A stretch of DNA of 64,000 nt from Cyanocohniella sp. LLY (GTDB lineage Bacteria > Cyanobacteriota > Cyanobacteriia > Cyanobacteriales > Nostocaceae): the NCBI GenBank assembly GCA_022241785.1, contig JAKOMP010000006.1, positions 302 to 64,301 on the forward strand. Direction: 5' to 3'. This document shows positions 5,470-36,215 of this stretch, piece by piece; the first letter of the stretch is position 1, and every line of letters begins with the position of its first letter. The notes beneath the pieces were generated by a model, which did no database searches, was not told the DNA's origin, and was given only the letters and a program-made list of their open reading frames with translations. A program made the translations under genes and the position numbers.

Positions 5470-6687
5470 TTGCCATATATGAGCCGTCCTATTCAAATTA
5501 ATAATCATCCTTTTCGGTTTCTGCTGTATTTAGAGTGGGTATTACTAGCGATCGCAGTTATCACAGCCGCGTTACCATCACCTTCACCACGGTTTACAAC
5601 TAAGGTTCCTGAACTGACTATTTTTAGTCTAGTTTTTTTTGGGTTAATGGGTTTGAGATTACCCACTGCTAACTATTTTAGTAAAATTTTTTATACAGCT
5701 ATTGAAATTTTTTTAATTACCACAACAGGATTCTTTGGGGGGAGAATTGCTAGGCTTTTTCCTTTTTTATATATTATTTTAGTAACTCGTAGTTGTTTGA
5801 TTTTTCAGTTACCTGGCCGTTTGGTAGTTACAAGTTTATCGTTTAGTTTATTTTTATTAACACTACGATATCGCTTACCTAGAGCTGTTTTACCACCACA
5901 TGCTCAAGAGCGATTGCGATTTTTTCCCCTCAGTTTAGCGTTGATATTCGGCTTAAGTTTAATTTTTATCTTGCTATTAATGAATACAGTAATCTCTGAA
6001 CGTCAAAGCCGCGAAAAATTAGCGATCGCTAACGAAAAACTGCGCCAATATGCTTTAAAAATTGAGAATCAGGCTACCCTTGAAGAACGCAATCGTATTG
6101 CTCGTGAAATCCATGATTCATTAGGACATTCTTTAACAGCTTTGAATTTACAATTAGAAACTGCCTTAAAACTGTGGACATCTAATCCAGACAAAGCTCA
6201 GACATTTTTAGCAAGAGCTAAAGAACTGGGGTCTAAATCACTCAACGATGTGCGTCAATCTGTTTCTACTATGCGTTCTCATCCTTTACAAGAGCAATCT
6301 TTAGAGCAGGCGATCACTATTCTTTTAGAAGATTTTTACCGCTCCAATGGGATATCACCAATTTGCCAAATAAATTTAGAATATTCTTTACCTGCTGACA
6401 TTATTATATCTATTTATCGGATTATCCAGGAATCTTTAACAAATATTTCTAAATATGCAGATGCATCGGAAGTAAAACTAAATTTAACTACAACTAAAAG
6501 TAGTTTTCGCTTGATAATTCAAGATAATGGTAAAGGTTTTTATGTTAAGCAAAATACGACTGGTTTTGGATTGCAAAGTATGCGCGATCGCACCTTAGCA
6601 TTAGGAGGAGAATTTAATATTAATAGTTCTCCTGGTTCTGGTTGTGAAATTATAGTTGATATTCCCTTGTTGAGATTGACACAATGA
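5470..6687 (+). CDS. Sensor histidine kinase, NarL/DesK-type (HisKA_3)
   Basis: [26 protein letters not shown]-terminal TM helices; HATPase DNGKGF...[10 protein letters not shown]. Confidence 0.92.
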
Positions 6688-20907: not shown

Positions 20908-21788
20908 GGGATCAATGAAATTTCAACATTTAATCTTCGGGGTGGTTTTGAGAAAATCGAAGTTTCAATCCCTCACAGGGAGTTAATGAAATTTCAACTT
21001 CACGTTATCCAAGATGAACACGGGGTGAAACTCTGGTTTCAATCCCTCATAGGGAGTTAAGGAAATTTCAACGGATTCTGTTCTAAGAAGAGAATCTAAA
21101 AATTACCCTGTTTCAATCCCTCATAGGGAGTTAAGGAAATTTCAACCCGTCCACAAAACAACAAAAGCCAACAATTTTTTCTGTTTCAATCCCTCATAGG
21201 GAGTTAAGGAAATTTCAACCTTCTTGGGCTGTATCATCTACTCCGGTATATTCCCGTTTCAATCCCTCATAGGGAGTTAAGGAAATTTCAACAGACTTCC
21301 TTACTTTTGGCATGACTAACTTTAGTTTCAATCCCTCATAGGGAGTTAAGGAAATTTCAACGTAATAGCCAAATTACTTGGCTGTAAATATTGATTGTTT
21401 CAATCCCTCATAGGGAGTTAAGGAAATTTCAACGGGGTTGGTGAAATTAAAGTTAAGAATATTACGTGTTTCAATCCCTCATAGGGAGTTAAGGAAATTT
21501 CAACCTTCGCACCACCGAGAGCGGTTTTGCAGCTGTAAGTTTCAATCCCTCATAGGGAGTTAAGGAAATTTCAACGAACAACAAAAGTATAAGAAGTTTT
21601 CATCTTTTTGTTTCAATCCCTCATAGGGAGTTAAGGAAATTTCAACTCTATGAATAATCAGCAAATCTTACAATGGATTAGTTTCAATCCCTCATAGGGA
21701 GTTAAGGAAATTTCAACTACTCAACGCTCCCGTGCGTTTGCTCTTTCTTGAGTTTCAATCCCTCATAGGGAGTTAAGGAAATTTCAAC
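20908..21788 (-). CRISPR. Type I-D CRISPR array: 12 full 37-nt repeats plus one degenerate terminal half-repeat; crRNA strand is minus (repeat GTTGAAATTTCCTTAACTCCCTATGAGGGATTGAAAC)
   Basis: Repeats start at 20962, 21036, 21110, 21183, 21256, 21325, 21397, 21468, 21539, 21610, 21681, 21752; spacers 32-37 nt; degeneracy at the low-coordinate end puts the leader near cas2. Confidence 0.99.
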
Positions 21789-21999
21789 GGCAACAGCCTA
21801 AAACTCTATGTATATTTACTTTTCAAGGTTCTGGTGCGCGGATGAGCCAATCATAGCATCAAAGATGTAGATTGATTGGCCAACAAATAGCTCAAACCCA
21901 GATTATGTAAGGCGCGCGGATACTTGAGGAGCGATTGGACTCAAAAGTGTTGCGCTGTGAGGATTTGCAGCCATCTTTCCACAAGAGCGTTCTGAACAC
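21789..21999 (-). promoter_or_regulatory. CRISPR leader region
   Basis: Between cas2 stop and first conserved repeat; contains inverted repeat GCCAATCA/TGATTGGC and repeated GCGCGGAT motif. Confidence 0.7.
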
Positions 22000-26616: not shown

Positions 26617-26761
26617 TGGCGGTTAAAAACCGCATCTACACAGGCGAAACCCACCTGCGTGGGTTAAAAATACCCATTTTTTTATTAGTCCGCGCAGGAC
26701 GTTCGGCGAAGCTCAGTCGAGCTGCGGACTTTGTTTGTGTAGCCGCAACTTATAGTCGCCC
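26617..26761. repeat. Dispersed hairpin element inserted inside the cas operon between cas10d and csc2
   Basis: ggcggttaaaaaccgcatctacacaggcgaaacccacctgcgtgggtt ... agtccgcgcagga...gctgcggactttgtttgtgtagccgc; CTACACA/TGTGTAG termini plus internal palindromes. Confidence 0.6.
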
Positions 26762-26775
26762 TGGCTCTAATTTGA

Positions 26776-27237
26776 TTATTCATTTTCATCATTTTCAACT
26801 TTAGATTTTCCTGCATTTTCTTTATCATCTTCAAGACGGTAAAGAAACTCACAGGTATCTCGAATTAAGTTGAGTTGACGGCCTGCTAAACGAGCGCGAT
26901 CGCCTGCAAATGAGTTATCAAATACCTCCACCACAAAATACTTGGCAAAATCTAGAACAGCTTGCCGTTCTTCCTCACGTTTGCTCATGATCCAACGTCC
27001 TTCAGCAGTAGAAGAATGAACACGATCCATGAGTTTAAAAACTTCTGCTGCAACAGCTGCAACTAATGTTTCTCCCTGAAACACACTTGACTCAGCTTTG
27101 AGTATAGTTTCAGCCGCAATATCAACTGGTTTCAACACAGCATTAGACTTAGGATTATAACGCTTATTAGCTCGGTAAAATCTGCGGTATAAATCTGTTA
27201 ATTTCTGAGGATGATTCAGACTTGATGCTTCTCCCAC
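26776..27237 (-). CDS. Candidate internally initiated Cas11d small subunit (about 153 aa) from the 3' end of cas10d
   Basis: In-frame GTG at 27237 preceded by GGAG with 9-nt spacing (ATGGAGCAATTAATTGTGGGAGAAGCA); an in-frame ATG lies at 27252. Confidence 0.5.
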   Translation of the reverse strand: MGEASSLNHPQKLTDLYRRFYRANKRYNPKSNAVLKPVDIAAETILKAESSVFQGETLVAAVAAEVFKLMDRVHSSTAEGRWIMSKREEERQAVLDFAKYFVVEVFDNSFAGDRARLAGRQLNLIRDTCEFLYRLEDDKENAGKSKVENDENE

Positions 27238-30129
27238 AATTAATTGCTCCATATTAGTGTCATATTTCACATAAGGATCAAAACAAGGATAAAAATGATA
27301 GGCATAAAGCCGGATTTTCTCGATTCGTGCTGTTTCCGATCCCTGGTTACGCACCCAGCGATTGAGATAAGAAAAAACGTACAACGGACTGGTTTCAAAA
27401 TCTTTAGCCAGTTCTGTAAATCTCCCCCAATTGGCATCGTAACCAGACTTACCCTGTCGCGCATTCACATCTAAATGAATGGCGTAAGCGGCGGTAAGCA
27501 CATTTAAAGGTGCTGGGTATTGGATGCCGTTTTCGTTCCAGCCTTCGAGGATGTAGTCAAGACGGAAGCGATCGCGCCTTACTAAAGCACGGAAAGCATG
27601 AGGCGCACTATCAAGGAAAACGCTTTCCTCAAACTCAGCGCCATCGTTAAAAGGTGGAATTGGTGACTCTGAAACTACAGTTTTAACATCTAAAATCATC
27701 GGGAAAGCAAACGCTAACCAAGTTGGCATTACCCAAGATTCTGTATCGGTGCTGTCTCTTCCTGGCGGGAGCGCCATGAAGTAAAATGTTAAAGGCTGGT
27801 CTTCAGGATAGGAAAGTTTAAAGGTGCGGTCTTTGTCACGCTGGAGGTTTTCATCGATTAAGAAACTATCTACACTTTGGTAGCGATCGCGCCCCAAATC
27901 CGCTTGTAAATCCTTACTGATAAAATGATTGCGAATGCTGGTATCAAAACGAGTTTGAGCAATACCATTGTAGGCTTTCTGCAAAAACTTGTTAGTCTCT
28001 GGAGTAAAGTAATAAGTAGGATAAAAGTAGAGATAGCGATATTTACCATCTTCAAATCGTTTACCTACAGCTTGAGTTTGATTCATCAAAATTTGCCTCA
28101 GCATCATCTCCACACCTGCAATACTGGAGATATTGCGTTTAGCGTTGGAACCTCCTAACATTTGCTTGTTTGTATAAACTTGAGGGGTAAATAAAACTGC
28201 TGATTCCATTTGCTCAGTAACCGTGTAAGCAGAATGAGAAATTGAGCAGATTAATTGTTTCCCTCGCCCTGATTTTTTCGCAGCATTGTAATTATCTAAC
28301 TCATTTAGAAATGTTTCAACTTGAGTTTTAACAGATGGCTCTTGATTAGTGCCTGGTAACATGACAACTCGTTTTACCCAAAGCCTTAAATCATCCCAAC
28401 CATCAGGTAATTGATATTGAGAAATTATCGGACAAATTAAGGTTGTCAAATAGTCAATTACTTGCTGACAAGCTTCGCGTACATCTTCAATCCCTGGATG
28501 ATGTTCTAAATATTTAGCCGCAAGATAATACCATTCATAAGGTACTCCTCCGGTATTTCCTTTTAACTTGTTTTCTTTGAGACTTTCATTAATGCGTTTA
28601 ATTTCTCTAATTTGGGGTAAACATTCTGTTAAATTCCAAAACTCTGCAACTTTGTGAGTTAAATCAAAATCGGGAACTGCTGGCAGCTTTTTATCTTTCT
28701 TACGAGCAGAATCAACGCGATTAACTGTCTCTTGCCAAATCTTTCGGCTAACTAAATCACCAAACTCTGCTATTTGGTCAATGCGGATATCGTCTTCAAA
28801 TTTGAAATCATAATCAGCAGATAAAACATTTCGTTGCTGAAACTTATTCAGATTTTCGCTGCGACTTTTAGCAACAGAGCCTTTATTAGGGTTTAAGATG
28901 CGTAATGTAGCATCTAAGGCTACTTCCATCAAGTCTATATTATCAAAAAATAAGTTGTAATATTCGGCATATTTCATGCCTTTGCCATCTCTACCAAATC
29001 CTGTTTGTCTGAGGCGTAATTGACCTGCACAAAGGGATTTAATACTGTTAACTACACGGTCTGGTAAATCTGACGGCGAGATAGCTGGCGCATTGCGCGA
29101 AGCCAAGTAAATTACGCCTGTTGGCAGATATAACAAAGGTTCATAATAGATATTTTCATCAGTATTCAGACTGATATGAGCCTGAATTAAAGCATTATTC
29201 ACCACATTAGTTAAAACACCCCGATTCTCAGCAATGCTGTGATAGGTAAATTTCAACTGTCCATCACTGAGGCTGTGGATGATTTCTTTGAGTCTAGGAT
29301 GTTCTGCATCCTGGGGATGTTTAACAATTGAGGCGAGAGAATCAGCTAAACAAGTTAAATCAGATAAACTGCGGAGGGTACGGTCTTTGAGAATAGGATT
29401 CAAGCCAAATTCAGAAAAATTCCAGTTAGTATCCCAACGGCGTTGAGCATTATAAGCCATGCATAACAAATCATCTACATATTCTCGATAAGCTTCAGGA
29501 TTTTCTGGATTTATAAAGTTATCGAGTCCTAGTTGGTGAACTTTTTTATCAATAATTTCACGATGTTCTGCTAACGGCAACTTGCGGCAGTTTTCAGGTA
29601 CATCAGGAAACTTTTCAAAATCATGTAAAATAAATCCAGCAATTACTAATCTGCGCTCTCGCTCTTTAACCACTCGCTGCACTGTGGTATTAAGTTTTTC
29701 TAAACGTTTCTCAATTAAATTAGCTGGGAATAATCCATTAAGTAAGTGAGTATTCAGTGATTGGTCAGCAGCGTTATCTCGTCTAACTTTAGTTTTCCCT
29801 TCAGCTTCTCGCTGTTGGTCAATCTCATCAAAAAACTTACCGCCTTTCGCCGTTACACCAATGGCTATCCGCAACAAATTTGGTAAAACATATTCACCAA
29901 AGTCTGCCATTACCTTATCATCTGGATTTTGAGATTGAATAGCTTCACGCAATAGTTTAAGTGTTAATAATTCGCCTTCGGTTTCAATAGTACGGTCTGA
30001 AGAATCGCCATCAAAACCAAAATCACCTGATAACCAATTATCATCTGCTACTTCAGAATTTACATCATTTTCTGTTTCTAAGAGTGATAATTGTTGATAC
30101 TCATCTGAAGCTTTATTTTTTTTAGCCAT
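26776..30129 (-). CDS. cas10d: Type I-D Cas10d (Csc3) with HD nuclease motif
   Basis: LVIAGFILHDFEKFPDVPE; LNTHLLNGLFPANLIEKRL; position in I-D operon. Confidence 0.95.
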   Translation of the reverse strand: MAKKNKASDEYQQLSLLETENDVNSEVADDNWLSGDFGFDGDSSDRTIETEGELLTLKLLREAIQSQNPDDKVMADFGEYVLPNLLRIAIGVTAKGGKFFDEIDQQREAEGKTKVRRDNAADQSLNTHLLNGLFPANLIEKRLEKLNTTVQRVVKERERRLVIAGFILHDFEKFPDVPENCRKLPLAEHREIIDKKVHQLGLDNFINPENPEAYREYVDDLLCMAYNAQRRWDTNWNFSEFGLNPILKDRTLRSLSDLTCLADSLASIVKHPQDAEHPRLKEIIHSLSDGQLKFTYHSIAENRGVLTNVVNNALIQAHISLNTDENIYYEPLLYLPTGVIYLASRNAPAISPSDLPDRVVNSIKSLCAGQLRLRQTGFGRDGKGMKYAEYYNLFFDNIDLMEVALDATLRILNPNKGSVAKSRSENLNKFQQRNVLSADYDFKFEDDIRIDQIAEFGDLVSRKIWQETVNRVDSARKKDKKLPAVPDFDLTHKVAEFWNLTECLPQIREIKRINESLKENKLKGNTGGVPYEWYYLAAKYLEHHPGIEDVREACQQVIDYLTTLICPIISQYQLPDGWDDLRLWVKRVVMLPGTNQEPSVKTQVETFLNELDNYNAAKKSGRGKQLICSISHSAYTVTEQMESAVLFTPQVYTNKQMLGGSNAKRNISSIAGVEMMLRQILMNQTQAVGKRFEDGKYRYLYFYPTYYFTPETNKFLQKAYNGIAQTRFDTSIRNHFISKDLQADLGRDRYQSVDSFLIDENLQRDKDRTFKLSYPEDQPLTFYFMALPPGRDSTDTESWVMPTWLAFAFPMILDVKTVVSESPIPPFNDGAEFEESVFLDSAPHAFRALVRRDRFRLDYILEGWNENGIQYPAPLNVLTAAYAIHLDVNARQGKSGYDANWGRFTELAKDFETSPLYVFSYLNRWVRNQGSETARIEKIRLYAYHFYPCFDPYVKYDTNMEQLIVGEASSLNHPQKLTDLYRRFYRANKRYNPKSNAVLKPVDIAAETILKAESSVFQGETLVAAVAAEVFKLMDRVHSSTAEGRWIMSKREEERQAVLDFAKYFVVEVFDNSFAGDRARLAGRQLNLIRDTCEFLYRLEDDKENAGKSKVENDENE

Positions 30130-30574
30130 CTTCTTGACTCAATGAATTTAAATAAGAACTAACTTGGCGCACATAAAGCGGATAGTGTTGTAATGCCAAA
30201 CTGATAGCTTTAAAAACTTGCCGTGGATCTATTTCGTCATATTCATGTACAAGACGATTCCTTAATCCTGATGATGGTGCTATTTGTCTGGCTAATTCAA
30301 CAGTAATTACACTGTATTGACCAAGAATAATAAAAGAATTAAAGTTGGTTTCTGACTTACCTGGATTTAGCTTAGATAATATATGGTCATTGATATCTAT
30401 AGCTGCTTGAGCCATTAATTGTAAAAGTCTCTCGGTAATTAGTTGAGTATCAAAGTCAAGCAGGTAATCCTCTAAAGTAATTTGCTCAAATCTTTTAAGA
30501 TTATCAAGATAACGAGCAATAAAATCCAACCTAGTTGTGACAATCACAGTATCTATCTTGGTCATACACCCCAC
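30122..30574 (-). CDS. HepT-like HEPN (DUF86) protein
   Basis: SGLRNRLVHEYDEIDP (RX4HxY); overlaps cas10d start by 8 nt. Confidence 0.88.
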   Translation of the reverse strand: MGCMTKIDTVIVTTRLDFIARYLDNLKRFEQITLEDYLLDFDTQLITERLLQLMAQAAIDINDHILSKLNPGKSETNFNSFIILGQYSVITVELARQIAPSSGLRNRLVHEYDEIDPRQVFKAISLALQHYPLYVRQVSSYLNSLSQEDG

Positions 30575-31008
30575 CTTTGGAGAAACTGCTCAATATGTTG
30601 TCGGGTAATATTTTCAATTTTTTTAAGCTCTGAATTACTCAGTAGATATCTTTGTTTGAATTTTTCAAATTCTCCTAGATTATCTTCATACAAAAGCTTC
30701 CCATCACGAGCAACAAAATGTGATATTAGTTCAGAGCATTGATTAAGTTCTACAACGTCTATTTGATCAGAATTTATTTTGAATAATTCGCCAATAACTA
30801 TAGGTAATTCAAACCAGAGAAAAGCATTATCTTTTACATAATTCTCACGTTGTTCCTGATCACACAAAACTGCAAAATCCCAGTCACTTTTAGCGTGAGT
30901 GTTCCCAGTAGCTCTAGAACCAAACAGAATTAACATTTTGAGATAAGGAATTTTTTCAGGAAGTTGTTGAGCTAATTCTCTAAGTTCTGTAATTGTTGGT
31001 GTTTTCAT
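30562..31008 (-). CDS. MntA-like minimal nucleotidyltransferase antitoxin
   Basis: ILFGSRATGNTHAKSDWDFAVL (GSx10DxD); overlaps HepT by 13 nt. Confidence 0.88.
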   Translation of the reverse strand: MKTPTITELRELAQQLPEKIPYLKMLILFGSRATGNTHAKSDWDFAVLCDQEQRENYVKDNAFLWFELPIVIGELFKINSDQIDVVELNQCSELISHFVARDGKLLYEDNLGEFEKFKQRYLLSNSELKKIENITRQHIEQFLQRWGV

Positions 31009-31046
31009 GTCAGCATTCCTATTAACCGTTATCTAATTGGCAATTT

Positions 31047-32066
31047 TTATTCCACTCCTTGTAGTAGTTTAGCAACTTGTTCTGGAGCCGGAAGTTGATT
31101 TTTTAATTCTTGAGGCAACGTAGAAAACAGTTTATAAGTTGCGATACCAATTGGTTTATTCGATTCTCTCAGTGCATACTCAACAATAGTTTTATCCTTG
31201 GATTTGCAAAGAATAATTCCGATTGAGGGATTTTCGTCTGGGAATCGAGATAAATCATCTAAAGCCGCCAGATAAAATTGCATTTTTCCCACATACTCAG
31301 GTAGGAACTCTCCAGTTTTTAACTCAATCGCAACTAGACATTTTAATTGGCGGTGATACAGCAACAGGTCAATAAAAAATTCTTTATCGCTAACTTCTAA
31401 GCGATACTGACTGCCAACAAAAGTAAACCGCCCACCCATTTCTTGCAAGAATGGTTCAACTCTTGCCAAAATTGCCTGTTCTAGCTGTCGTTCACTGTGT
31501 TCATCTGCTAGTTCCAAGAAATCAAAAGTATATTCATCTTTGACAGCTAGTTTTAATTGGTTACGAATCTCTGCTGGAACAGTTTTATCAAAATTAGTCT
31601 GATTTAACAGAGTCTTTTCATAAGTTTGATTTTCAATTTGGTGAATCAAAACATTCTTTGTCCAGCCAAATTTGCGAGTCATCCTAATATAAAACTCTCG
31701 TTCGAGGTCATCTTTGCATTTCTCTATAATGACCAGATTGTGAGTCCATCCAATTTCTCGCACCATTGGTGCGAGTTTTTCATTGTTGACGTATGATTCA
31801 TAAAAAAGCCTCATCCGCCAGAGGTTAGCAGCAGAAAACCCGCTAATTCCTGGAAACTCTGCTTGTAAGTCTTTTGCTAACTGTTCTACTACGGATTTTC
31901 CCCAACTAGCGCCCTGCTGTTGAGTAACAATTATCTGTCCAATGTCCCAGTAGAGGTTAATCATTTCCCGATTAACTGCTTTTAGTGCTTCGTATTGGGC
32001 TGAACGAATACGCTGTTTTATTTCCATTAGCAAATGTCTGTAATCGTTTGAAATGGGGTTACTCAT
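31047..32066 (-). CDS. DUF1016/YhcG-family PD-(D/E)XK nuclease
   Basis: INLYWDIGQIIVTQQQGASWGKSVVEQLAKDLQAEFPGISGFSAANLWRMRLFYESY; FFIDLLLYHRQLKCLVAIELKTGEF. Confidence 0.93.
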   Translation of the reverse strand: MSNPISNDYRHLLMEIKQRIRSAQYEALKAVNREMINLYWDIGQIIVTQQQGASWGKSVVEQLAKDLQAEFPGISGFSAANLWRMRLFYESYVNNEKLAPMVREIGWTHNLVIIEKCKDDLEREFYIRMTRKFGWTKNVLIHQIENQTYEKTLLNQTNFDKTVPAEIRNQLKLAVKDEYTFDFLELADEHSERQLEQAILARVEPFLQEMGGRFTFVGSQYRLEVSDKEFFIDLLLYHRQLKCLVAIELKTGEFLPEYVGKMQFYLAALDDLSRFPDENPSIGIILCKSKDKTIVEYALRESNKPIGIATYKLFSTLPQELKNQLPAPEQVAKLLQGVE

Positions 32067-32302
32067 AATGTAAAAGGTTCAACTCGCTCATGACTAACTA
32101 GGCGACGCGCATAGATTAAACAGGCTTGCACATCTTCCAGTTCTAACCAGGGATAAGCTTCTAGTAAGGTTTCGATAGTATCTCCCGCCCTCAACATCCC
32201 CAAAATATGTTCAACCGCAAGGCGACGACCTCGAATAATTGGTTTACCCTCAAAGATTTTAGGGTTAACTGTAATTCTTTCTAGTAGTAAGTGTTCATTC
32301 AT
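32063..32302 (-). CDS. DUF433 antitoxin-like protein
   Basis: LLERITVNPKIFEGKPIIRGRRLAVEHILGMLRAGDTIETLLEAYPWLELEDVQACLIYA; 4-nt overlap with DUF1016 gene. Confidence 0.9.
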   Translation of the reverse strand: MNEHLLLERITVNPKIFEGKPIIRGRRLAVEHILGMLRAGDTIETLLEAYPWLELEDVQACLIYARRLVSHERVEPFTL

Positions 32303-32355
32303 GGTTTATCTTCAAAATGTTTAAGTTTATTGACTATTTATTGTGATTGGGAGGA

Positions 32356-32498
32356 AAGAGGGAAGCTTTGCTAAAACTCATTGCTTTAAGATTTGGTGTT
32401 ACCAGTGACTCGCTCAACCATCAGCTTTCAATCTGTTGGGGATAGAGACTACCTACGCCTGACCTTAATACCGCAAGCTGCTGTATAGCTTCCCTCTT
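32356..32498. other. 143-bp element bounded by perfect 12-bp inverted repeats; candidate structured RNA or MITE upstream of DUF433
   Basis: AAGAGGGAAGCT (32356-32367) / AGCTTCCCTCTT (32487-32498); internal CAGCTT/AAGCTG pairing. Confidence 0.6.
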
Positions 32499-32553
32499 AG
32501 ATGGAGATTCTCTAATTTAGCTAGAGAAATCCCCAGATAAGCTATCGCATCAG

Positions 32554-32760
32554 TTATGCTGCCAATAACCGATATTGAAATTGGTTATGAGCAACTTTTC
32601 GCTTTTCAATTAAGTAGCCTTTCTTGCGAGCTTCAAACACTGTGTGTCCAAATCGCCAACTAATCTTAGCGGCTAGTTCGTCGCCTAAATGCCACTTACC
32701 ATCTTTGAGAACTGAGATTAGTCGCTCAAGGTTTGTCAATTTGACAAGCATGGTTATCAC
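32554..32760 (-). CDS. Small winged-helix-like protein (68 aa), possible regulator
   Basis: LERLISVLKDGKWHLGDELAAKISWRFGHTVFEARKKGYLIEKRKVAHNQFQYRL; SD-like AAAGGAGGTGATAACC upstream. Confidence 0.65.
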   Translation of the reverse strand: MITMLVKLTNLERLISVLKDGKWHLGDELAAKISWRFGHTVFEARKKGYLIEKRKVAHNQFQYRLLAA

Positions 32761-32808
32761 CTCCTTTAAAAACTCTGTCGTACAAATACTTCAGTCCAAA
32801 TGCTTGTT

Positions 32809-32836
32809 TTGCAAGGACTTCAGTAATTTGTATAAT
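32809..32836 (+). promoter_or_regulatory. Candidate promoter for the mini-CRISPR RNA (TTGCAA-N16-TATAAT)
   Basis: Sequence match to sigma70-type boxes, reading toward 32966. Confidence 0.4.
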
Positions 32837-32839
32837 CTG

Positions 32840-32868
32840 ACGCTACATAATGCGATAGCTCTTGTCAA
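32840..32868 (-). promoter_or_regulatory. Candidate promoter for wHTH-TA-cas operon (TTGACA-N17-TAGCGT)
   Basis: Perfect -35 TTGACA at 32868-32863 on minus strand, weak -10. Confidence 0.4.
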
Positions 32869-32875
32869 GCATTTC

Positions 32876-32923
32876 AATAAGCTTAGACTTATTCAACAAC
32901 TAATAAGCGTTGACTTATTCAAC
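32876..32923. promoter_or_regulatory. Two tandem palindromic sites AATAAG-N6-CTTATT-CAAC; each reads GTT-GAATAAGTC on minus strand
   Basis: aataagcttagacttattcaac and aataagcgttgacttattcaac; both match the mini-CRISPR spacer 5' half. Confidence 0.75.
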
Positions 32924-32965: not shown

Positions 32966-33072
32966 AAAACAATCCTTTAAAATCCCTATTAGGGATTGAA
33001 ACGAATAAGTCTGTGCTTAAAACCGTAAGCTCTTGTCATAAATCAACTAAAATCCCTATCAGGGATTGAAAC
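32966..33072 (+). CRISPR. Divergent two-repeat, one-spacer mini-CRISPR (candidate crRNA-like regulatory RNA)
   Basis: Repeat 3' parts ATCCCTATTAGGGATTGAAAC (ends 33002) and ATCCCTATCAGGGATTGAAAC (ends 33072); 70-nt period; ATTGAAAC handle as in the main array. Confidence 0.8.
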
Positions 33073-33073
33073 C

Positions 33074-35251
33074 TCAAACAACCCATATCTCATCTCCTTT
33101 GCTTTTAAACGTGTATGCAAGCGTATCCAGCAACAGTGCAGAGTGACCAAAAGCGATCGCATACGGCGCAGTAGCATCATGAAAGCTATACTGATCGCTG
33201 ATGCCATAAATCTGAAAATTCATCGGTAGCCTTAGCCGCATCCGCACTTCAGCAAGAGGACGGCGAATCACGTAACAAACCAAACCTTCCTTTTTTAGAC
33301 GCTTGTTAATTTCTCCAACCCAATAGTTGTCAGGTTGCCAAATTTCCACACCAGTCAAAACCTGAACTTTCCAAGCGTCAGCAATTTGCTGCAAGTTACC
33401 AGAATAGGTAAACTTCCAGTTCAGCCTTTCCTCTCGGTAAGAACGCAATTTCATAAATGCTAGACAATGAGCAAATCTACCTTTGGCGATGGGTTGTCCG
33501 GTGCGTTCTGCGGTTTCTTTGAGTGTCCGTATAAATGCCGCTTCCGTCCACATTTCAATTTCTAAATTTCCCAAAATACCCGGTAAATCGTAGGTTTTAA
33601 ACCTATCTGCTTCGTTTTCTTCCGTTAAGTCGTATAAACCACATTGCAAAGGACTTGAACCGCGAAAACTAGCAGCATCCTCAGCAATAGGATTTCCTGA
33701 TTTACCAGAAAGCGCTTGCCAATCTTTCGCCCATCCTTGAATACGTCCAGCTTGTGACTTCAGACTTGTTTCAAATACTTGTTCACAGGCTTCTTGAAAC
33801 TTCTCTCGGCTTTGGGCATACTGTTGTTTAATTGTGCGATCACTCAACTGATAAAACAGCCAAAATGATTGCACAGCCCCCCAACGACGATAATAACCAC
33901 GAAAATCGTTGATTTGTCGATAATTCTCAGTAATTGTATTGTGAAAATAGGGGCGATCGCAAATACTATTCCCCTCTAACGGTGGCGTATCTCCCTTAAA
34001 CAATCGCTCTACCAAAAAGTTAGGAACTAAAGAAAAAGCTGTGAAATTCTCAAACTTAATTTTTTGACCATCTTTTTCATATTCGTCATGCCTTCCTAAG
34101 CGTCCTAAACGTTGGATAAAGTTACCTGCATCAGATGATTCAAAAATTAAAAAATTGATTTTTAAATCAACCCCAACATCAATTGTGCTAGTACCAATAA
34201 CCAAATCAGCAGAAAGGCTTCGCTCTTTTTCTCCTTTTCCCGATAGCCCTGTATTTTCTCCAACTTTCAATCCGCAAGGCTGTAATATTTCCCGAAAAAA
34301 CTGAGTTAGACGTTTGACTGCTGCAATTGAGTTAAGGATAATTGCGCCTTTACTTCCTGGATACTGCTGAAACTGAGCCAAAATCAAATCACTATTTTCT
34401 TTGAGCCAGGTTTCCGAAGCTTTAAACGACGGTTCCAAAGGAATAAAATTCAGCGTAATTGTCCGTGCTACCTGTCGCCAGCCCTGTGCTTGCAGTTGCT
34501 GCCCTTGTTCTGGTGTATCAGGAAATTGATATTTATGTTGTTTGAGCGGATCAATTTCTTGACAACTAAATCCTGCTTTTTCTAATCGCCCAATTAAGTT
34601 TGTATCTGGTGTGGCTGAGAGAAACAGAAATTTTTTGCGGCGATTTGTACAGCGAATTAACAACATTGTGTTAATCACACTAGCAATTTGTGGAGCAGCG
34701 AAAACGTGAAATTCATCAAAAATAAATAAGTCAAAATCTTTATCAATTCTGCCCCATAACTTATCTGGACTATCGCCATGAATTATATAAGCACCTCGAT
34801 GTAGGTAGTGAAAAATATCGGGGTTAGTTAATAATGCTTCTCTCTGGTTAGTGAGAGTTGCGATCGCCGCCCCTTTTTTTAAGCCCTCATTTTCAGCATA
34901 AATCTCTAAATCAGCCCCACTGAGTCGCACTACACGCGGCTGATTTTCTGGCTGGAATTTTTCAACATATCCTTTAATCTGCGTTTCTTGATCGCGGGCG
35001 AGTTCGTTAGTTGGGTAAAGTCCAATGGCGGAAAACTCTCCTTGAAGCACTTCTAGGTAAGCCGCTAGACTTTTACCATCGCCAGTCATTGCAGTATTGA
35101 ACACGACATCAATATTGGGATCGCGTAATGCTTCTAAAGTTGCTGCTTGATGCCAAGATAGTGACCAATTTTGAGGTAGTTGCACCCCATCAGGTGTGGG
35201 GACTGTTTGCGAATAAACAGGTTTGAGAGTAATTTGGTAACTTTCGGACAT
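33074..35251 (-). CDS. cas3: Type I-D CRISPR helicase Cas3'
   Basis: VFNTAMTGDGKSLAAYL Walker A; LFIFDEFHVFAAP; FLSATPD; NFIQRLGRLGRHDE. Confidence 0.93.
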   Translation of the reverse strand: MSESYQITLKPVYSQTVPTPDGVQLPQNWSLSWHQAATLEALRDPNIDVVFNTAMTGDGKSLAAYLEVLQGEFSAIGLYPTNELARDQETQIKGYVEKFQPENQPRVVRLSGADLEIYAENEGLKKGAAIATLTNQREALLTNPDIFHYLHRGAYIIHGDSPDKLWGRIDKDFDLFIFDEFHVFAAPQIASVINTMLLIRCTNRRKKFLFLSATPDTNLIGRLEKAGFSCQEIDPLKQHKYQFPDTPEQGQQLQAQGWRQVARTITLNFIPLEPSFKASETWLKENSDLILAQFQQYPGSKGAIILNSIAAVKRLTQFFREILQPCGLKVGENTGLSGKGEKERSLSADLVIGTSTIDVGVDLKINFLIFESSDAGNFIQRLGRLGRHDEYEKDGQKIKFENFTAFSLVPNFLVERLFKGDTPPLEGNSICDRPYFHNTITENYRQINDFRGYYRRWGAVQSFWLFYQLSDRTIKQQYAQSREKFQEACEQVFETSLKSQAGRIQGWAKDWQALSGKSGNPIAEDAASFRGSSPLQCGLYDLTEENEADRFKTYDLPGILGNLEIEMWTEAAFIRTLKETAERTGQPIAKGRFAHCLAFMKLRSYREERLNWKFTYSGNLQQIADAWKVQVLTGVEIWQPDNYWVGEINKRLKKEGLVCYVIRRPLAEVRMRLRLPMNFQIYGISDQYSFHDATAPYAIAFGHSALLLDTLAYTFKSKGDEIWVV

Positions 35252-35345: not shown

Positions 35346-36215
35346 ATGAGTCGAAAAGGTCAGTCGATAACTTTATCTATTTCAGAACGTGATAAAGCCG
35401 AGCTAGAAAACCTGGCTTTGGAGTTTGGTATGATGTGGGGTGATCGCCCGAATATCTCTAAACTTATAGAAGCGATCGCCCGTCATCAGTTAATTATTCG
35501 TAAAAATCACGACTGGTCAGAAGAACGTATTCGTGCGCTTGACCGTGCAATGCGTTTATTAACCGACAATGGGCAAAATGACCAAGCACAAACAATAGCA
35601 CAATTATTACTAGAACGTAGCGAACTACCAATACTTCTGCGTACCAATATTGAAAGTTTTTTAGGAAATTTACACCCACAATGGCGTTTGGAAATTGACC
35701 GTTATATCTTACGTCAGGAAGCATTTCAACTCAGTTATCAAGATGCAGCACAACGAGTTTTTAATTTTACTGTCTATTATGCTAAAGTTACACCCCATGA
35801 AAAGCGGCAATATCTAGATTGCTGGTGTAAAGAGACAGAAGGTAATTCTGATGTGGAAGAATTACGTCATAATTGGAGTTTACGTTTAGACCGTATTCAA
35901 GACGCTGCTGTTTTACCTGTTGCTGGTCAGTGGCGTACTGCTGGACTTGCACAGATAGACATAGAGATGCATCTGCTGGGTAATTTAGGCTTTGCTTATC
36001 AGTCCAAACCAGAAGACAAAATAAATGACTGGCTACCAGAGACACAACGAGTAAAGCAAGTTATCAGGAGTGTCTCTAATACATTTTGGTTTACTAGGGA
36101 AGTGATGCAATATGCACCAGATTGTGTAATTGTATCGCCAAAAAGTGTACAAGTACTCATTCAAAAGAAAATTAAAACTCTTTATCACAATTACCATTTA
36201 GATGTATCTTCATGA
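35346..36215 (+). CDS. WYL-domain-type transcriptional regulator associated with I-D CRISPR
   Basis: RHH-like N-terminus MSRKGQSITLSISERDKAELENLALEFG; WYL-like central and C-terminal region; divergent to cas3'. Confidence 0.65.
   Translation: MSRKGQSITLSISERDKAELENLALEFGMMWGDRPNISKLIEAIARHQLIIRKNHDWSEERIRALDRAMRLLTDNGQNDQAQTIAQLLLERSELPILLRTNIESFLGNLHPQWRLEIDRYILRQEAFQLSYQDAAQRVFNFTVYYAKVTPHEKRQYLDCWCKETEGNSDVEELRHNWSLRLDRIQDAAVLPVAGQWRTAGLAQIDIEMHLLGNLGFAYQSKPEDKINDWLPETQRVKQVIRSVSNTFWFTREVMQYAPDCVIVSPKSVQVLIQKKIKTLYHNYHLDVSS

Follow-up and report, generated by a model that had tools for sequence, protein, structure and literature searches.

What ties toxin-antitoxin (TA) genes to a CRISPR operon in which they lie wedged between two cas genes? 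The question is raised by a 64,000-nt stretch of Cyanocohniella sp. LLY (contig JAKOMP010000006.1), hereafter the window, which carries a type I-D CRISPR-Cas system with cas3' (33074–35251, minus strand; TIGR03158), cas10d (26776–30129, minus; TIGR03174), csc2 (TIGR03157) and a main array of 12 repeats (20943–21792, minus; array detection and Rfam). An earlier reading of the letters alone, here called the sequence-only reading, placed five minus-strand open reading frames (ORFs) between cas3' and cas10d, namely a winged helix-turn-helix (wHTH) gene, DUF433, DUF1016, MntA and HepT, and all five are present. What it had missed is a degenerate two-repeat mini-CRISPR, with repeats of the main-array type, directly after cas3'. 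Here, we show that the guide of this mini-CRISPR matches two sites, each with GTT as protospacer-adjacent motif (PAM) and a 9-10-nt seed, that lie immediately before the promoter of the wHTH-TA-cas10d operon. We argue that this guide, resembling the CRISPR-resembling regulatory RNA CreR, very likely makes the type I-D Cascade repress the operon, and that the CRISPR machinery probably keeps both the toxins and cas10d off.

By Rfam, the CRISPR RNA (crRNA) sense is the minus strand for the main array and the plus strand, antisense to the operon, for the mini-CRISPR. The first degenerate repeat, PsiR1 (33039–33072), stands just past the cas3' stop and matches CRISPR-DR5 with 42 bits, while the second, PsiR2 (32970–33002), reaches 39.1 bits, just under the gathering threshold of 40, and supplies the 5' handle ATTGAAAC. 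The guide between them (33003–33036, plus; first 34 nt GAATAAGTCTGTGCTTAAAACCGTAAGCTCTTGT) adjoins this handle and begins GAATAAGTCTGTGC. The PAM of type I-D is GTN, and its crRNA has an 8-nt handle and shows sixth-base flip-out (PMC10212523, PMC9123187). On the operon strand downstream of the mini-CRISPR we find GTT-GAATAAGTCAACGC and GTT-GAATAAGTCTAAGC; the two promoter targets are T1 (GTT followed by GAATAAGTC; 32907–32923, minus), identified by the seed and covariation tests, and T2 (GTT followed by GAATAAGTCT; 32881–32897, minus), with a best match of 9/10 and a shuffle p of 0.001. A 35-nt protospacer starting at T2 extends to the -35 box of the candidate promoter TTGACA-N17-TAGCGT (32840–32868, minus), whose form recurs in related loci. 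With the guide read in operon orientation, 11 nt agree with the -35 region (TGACAAGAGCT), but this match was dropped because it lacks a GTN PAM and its strand does not suit the I-D handle. A candidate promoter of the guide RNA, TTTGCA-N17-TATAAT, points at the mini-CRISPR from 32808–32836 on the plus strand, and a similar -10 box is seen in L036 and L042.

That the layout is not peculiar to the window came from a survey of cyanobacterial I-D loci. Cas10d was detected in 39 of 60 relatives and, at a stricter cut-off, in 80 of 393 genomes of the class; the survey set held 82 loci, comprising the cas3'-cas10d regions of 81 loci and the window. For each locus, the sequence adjoining the second repeat served as the guide, and a GTN followed by a seed match was sought within 330 nt; the PAM had to supply only the GT, and mismatches at position 6 or from position 12 onwards had no bearing on the choice of site. 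Guide, PAM and seed were found in 59 of the 82 loci, 51 of them by the standard procedure (shuffle p ≤ 0.025 for the PsiR2 guides, in most cases the lowest value that the test can give) and 8 more by relaxed repeat detection, these being chosen by score and without a shuffle p. PsiR1, which has no guide and served as negative control, never gave a p under 0.06, and no locus passed with it. The third base of the PAM was T or C in all best sites (GTT or GTC, 59/59). The mismatch rate was about 0 at guide positions 1–5, 0.68 at position 6, 0.69 at 12, about 0.23 at 13–16 and 0.78 at 18; since type I Cascade flips out the bases at 6, 12 and 18, we take these mismatches as the signature of Cascade. 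Guides scored 12.3/14 against their own targets and 5.4/14 when swapped (permutation p 1e-4), and although their starts vary (GAATA, AAATA, TTCCG, ACGAG, ATGAC, ACTGT, TCTAT, TTTGG), each fits its own promoter region. Two target sites are present in 25 loci. In loci of the wHTH type, the last plus-orientation site mostly lies 18–37 nt before TTGnnn-N17-TAnnnT, a distance at which Cascade bound there would overlie the -35 box. The pattern also holds in two records from outside the survey, Anabaena sp. 90 (p 0.006) and Dolichospermum UHCC 0315A (p 0.002). L032 has two repeats, yet neither the standard nor the relaxed search found a target there.

These observations suggest how the operon may be controlled. 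The mini-CRISPR would be transcribed antisense to the operon and cut by Cas6d into a crRNA with the PsiR2 handle; Cascade loaded with this guide would bind T1 and T2 through the seed and partial pairing over about 16 nt, cover the -35 box and repress wHTH-(TA)-cas10d. Since Cas10d is a component of Cascade, such repression would be autorepression. HepT/MntA, DUF433 and DUF1016, lying between the guided promoter and cas10d, would come under the same control, and their expression would rise on loss of Cascade, on its inhibition by an anti-CRISPR or on its titration by crRNAs. In the known CreR systems, a degenerate mini-CRISPR provides a guide that matches a cas promoter to a limited extent and through which the Cas effector represses itself (reviewed in PMC12737573). 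The window shares with them the degenerate repeats of the resident CRISPR family and a guide that partly matches, next to a PAM, the promoter of a cas operon, but differs in being type I-D, in having TA genes inside the repressed operon and in having a PAM-less RNA target in the transcript. No CreR-like case of type I-D was found in the open-access literature searched.

Several observations weigh against this reading. The surveyed loci are mutually related, so that the counts are not independent; 23 of the 82 loci have no guide/target pair, and 12 of these have TA genes. The promoter boxes are consensus matches only, with a poor -10 (TAGCGT), and a stricter promoter scan did not report TTGACA-N17-TAGCGT. 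The TA genes may also have a separate promoter, for example within the 250 nt after wHTH.

Curated models support DUF433, a probable antitoxin (32063–32302; PF04255), the DUF1016/YhcG PD-(D/E)XK nuclease (31047–32066; PF17761 and PF06250, that is DUF1016_N and YhcG_C), the nucleotidyltransferase antitoxin MntA (30562–31008; PF18765/NF047752; PDB 7ae2_B, 3.9e-60) and the RNase toxin HepT (30122–30565; PF01934/NF047751; PDB 7ae9_A, 6.1e-63), all on the minus strand; the NF047751 and NF047752 matches both exceed their curated cut-offs. The wHTH gene (32554–32751, minus) is backed by a PADLOC HTH model only (7e-28) and has no Pfam family. The sequence-only reading had the overlaps of DUF433 with DUF1016 (4 nt) and of HepT with cas10d (8 nt) right, while its 13-nt overlap of MntA and HepT is more likely one of 4 nt (ATGA), because the characterised homologue of HepT begins at the position of ATG 30565; GTG 30574 is a possible start. 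Likewise, the wHTH protein more likely has 65 residues from ATG 32751, which stands behind AAAGGAGGTGAT, than the 68 proposed from GTG 32760. HepT and MntA match the HEPN toxin and MNT antitoxin of PDB 7AE9/7AE2 over nearly their whole lengths, and their catalytic motifs are intact (RNRLVHEY for RX4HXY in HepT; GS-X10-DWD for GSX10DXD in the adjacent MntA). In homologues of this pair, toxicity is neutralised by AMPylation (PMC11586414). Both window proteins are close homologues of the Aphanizomenon flos-aquae HEPN-MNT proteins that these structures represent. The A. flos-aquae pair is said to have been reported near a I-D CRISPR-Cas locus by Songailiene in 2020, and we know of no guide-RNA control of it.

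Using the window proteins as queries, we found TA genes in the gap of 56 of the 82 loci (HepT in 33, MntA in 30, DUF433 in 33 and DUF1016 in 16), and DUF5615, a frequent companion of DUF433 in these gaps, in 10. TA genes are thus far from missing in nearly all orthologous loci. Of the 33 loci with HepT, most have it overlapping cas10d, and in about 14 the overlap is exactly 8 nt. Since TA genes fill these gaps throughout the class and the overlap with cas10d recurs, their placement is not a matter of chance. Could they nevertheless be mobile passengers with promoters of their own, sitting in a tolerated gap, so that autorepression of cas10d alone matters? The guide/promoter pair and TA genes occur together in 44 loci, with the pair alone in 15, TA genes alone in 12 and neither in 11 (Fisher p 0.066), and the TA make-up varies widely among loci, as passengers would have it. 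On the other hand, the window's HepT subfamily is restricted to the I-D locus or its flank in 22/22 genomes with a match (25 searched), the sole HepT outside the gap, in G017, lying a few kb upstream of cas3'; together with the cas10d overlap, this makes independent transcription and translation unlikely. We regard the passenger explanation as a serious possibility that nonetheless falls short of being probable. As guide and TA genes co-occur imperfectly, autorepression of cas10d appears to be the older role; judged from these sequence comparisons, the guide probably acts first of all on cas10d, and the TA genes come under the same control. In seven loci (L078, at 1030–1704 on the minus strand, L075, L077, L086, L091, L092 and L094) a single ORF encodes DUF433 and MntA as a fusion, and in L073 and L080 wHTH and MntA are fused, which suggests that DUF433 and wHTH act together with MntA. 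MntA is tandemly duplicated in the gaps of L096 and L101, as is HepT in L096.

A further possibility is that the guide belongs to a dedicated toxin guard, which keeps a toxin off as long as Cascade is intact. Such guards are known as CreTA (PMC8501985, PMC9458426), with which the window shares two flanking degenerate repeats and a partial promoter match, and as CrePA (PMC12737573), in which, likewise, a guide-repressed promoter is followed by a gene for a protein toxin. However, CreT is a toxic RNA whereas here protein TA modules and cas10d lie downstream, and CreP is typically a KilA-N protein with an RNA antitoxin whereas here the pair is HepT/MntA of type VII; family model searches gave no KilA-N match among the window's gap genes. 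A conserved structured RNA, which might or might not be toxic, also lies behind the guided promoter here. What speaks for a guard is that the guide type tracks the first small gene of the operon (GAATA/AAATA guides with wHTH, TTCCG with QLEL, AC.../ATGAC with CC112 and ACTGT/TCTAT with C6, with few exceptions such as L037), so that guide, promoter and gene seem to travel as a cassette, and that TA genes lie downstream in 44 of the 59 loci with a pair. Because toxin and antitoxin lie in one operon, the first genes tested included neither KilA-N nor any other known toxin, and 15 cassettes come without these TA genes, we consider a dedicated guard unlikely. The families QLEL (about 63 residues), CC112 (a coiled coil of about 112) and C6 (about 177), found for example in L040, L035 and L059, are small and uncharacterised.

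The transcript that CreR-like repression would silence holds a third match to the guide. In wHTH-type loci, a non-coding stretch of near-constant length (210–340 nt) follows wHTH, and it contains a structured RNA whose consensus fold scores -17.9, whereas column shuffles give -2.4 ± 1.5. The outer stem shows weak covariation, and we therefore restrict the claim to the core (32403–32482, minus; covariance model R1). The core is specific to I-D loci, with matches in 24 of about 235 genomes, of which 23 lie just upstream of cas10d and one is marginal; no Rfam family matched it. Inside this RNA in the window lies T3 (32451–32484, minus), a PAM-less operon-strand site complementary to guide positions 4–29 with mismatches at every sixth base. 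Sites of this type, with near full-length complementarity, occur in 35 loci, none with a GTN PAM; in QLEL-type loci the equivalent site precedes the QLEL gene, and none was found in the CC112 and C6 types, except for CC112 loci whose best match is the promoter site itself. In the L162 locus (Stanieria PCC 7437), the structured RNA is retained at about 5545–5700, the mini-CRISPR has decayed and a promoter target is not detectable.

As I-D Cascade binds complementary single-stranded RNA whatever the flank (PMC9123187), an RNA decoy role of T3 is plausible. In wHTH- and QLEL-type loci, T3 could sequester the Cascade-guide complex that would repress its own operon: when Cascade drops, transcript would build up and soak up the leftover repressor, turning on cas10d and toxins together. 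We offer this self-derepressing switch tentatively, as a possibility suggested by the sequences. T3 might instead be a decayed, non-functional duplicate of the mini-CRISPR, as its similarity runs on into PsiR2. In sites chosen on positions 7–30 alike, however, mismatches are concentrated at positions 6, 12, 18, 24 and 30 (0.68, 0.74, 0.53, 0.95 and 0.89) and are mostly near 0 elsewhere except at 2, 3, 8 and 21; own guides fit T3 better than swapped ones within each type (p 1e-4), and the RNA around T3 is structured and conserved, so that a mere relic is quite improbable. A CRISPR-DR28 match at 26643–26666 was rejected as a repeat, since it falls below cut-off and resembles a GC-rich hairpin in the cas10d-csc2 interval.

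The proposal of the sequence-only reading, that translational coupling of HepT to Cas10d gives rise, with no RNA guidance, to a module for addiction or abortive infection, draws on the same conserved overlap, but short overlaps are common in operons and coupling accounts for the last junction only, leaving guide, promoter targets and T3 unexplained, which makes it very unlikely. Its broader claim of a tie between TA genes and CRISPR is supported by the conserved placement and overlap and by the confinement of the HepT subfamily to I-D loci, and the guide directed at the operon promoter forms a stronger link than coupling does. The pair-only and TA-only loci speak against a dedicated addiction device.

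If CreR-like repression of the operon is true, RNA-guided autorepression of cas genes reaches type I-D across cyanobacteria, protein TA modules there come under CRISPR control, and an RNA target within the repressed transcript adds an extra layer; why HEPN-MNT adjoins I-D loci would become directly testable. The system may have been overlooked because the laboratory model Synechocystis PCC 6803 lacks this arrangement, its cas3' and cas10d being spaced by 13 nt. Beside cas3' in the window lies a divergent gene for a WYL/WCX-type regulator (35346–36215, plus), conserved in most loci, and such a regulator, like Sll7009 of Synechocystis, is a possible second layer of control.

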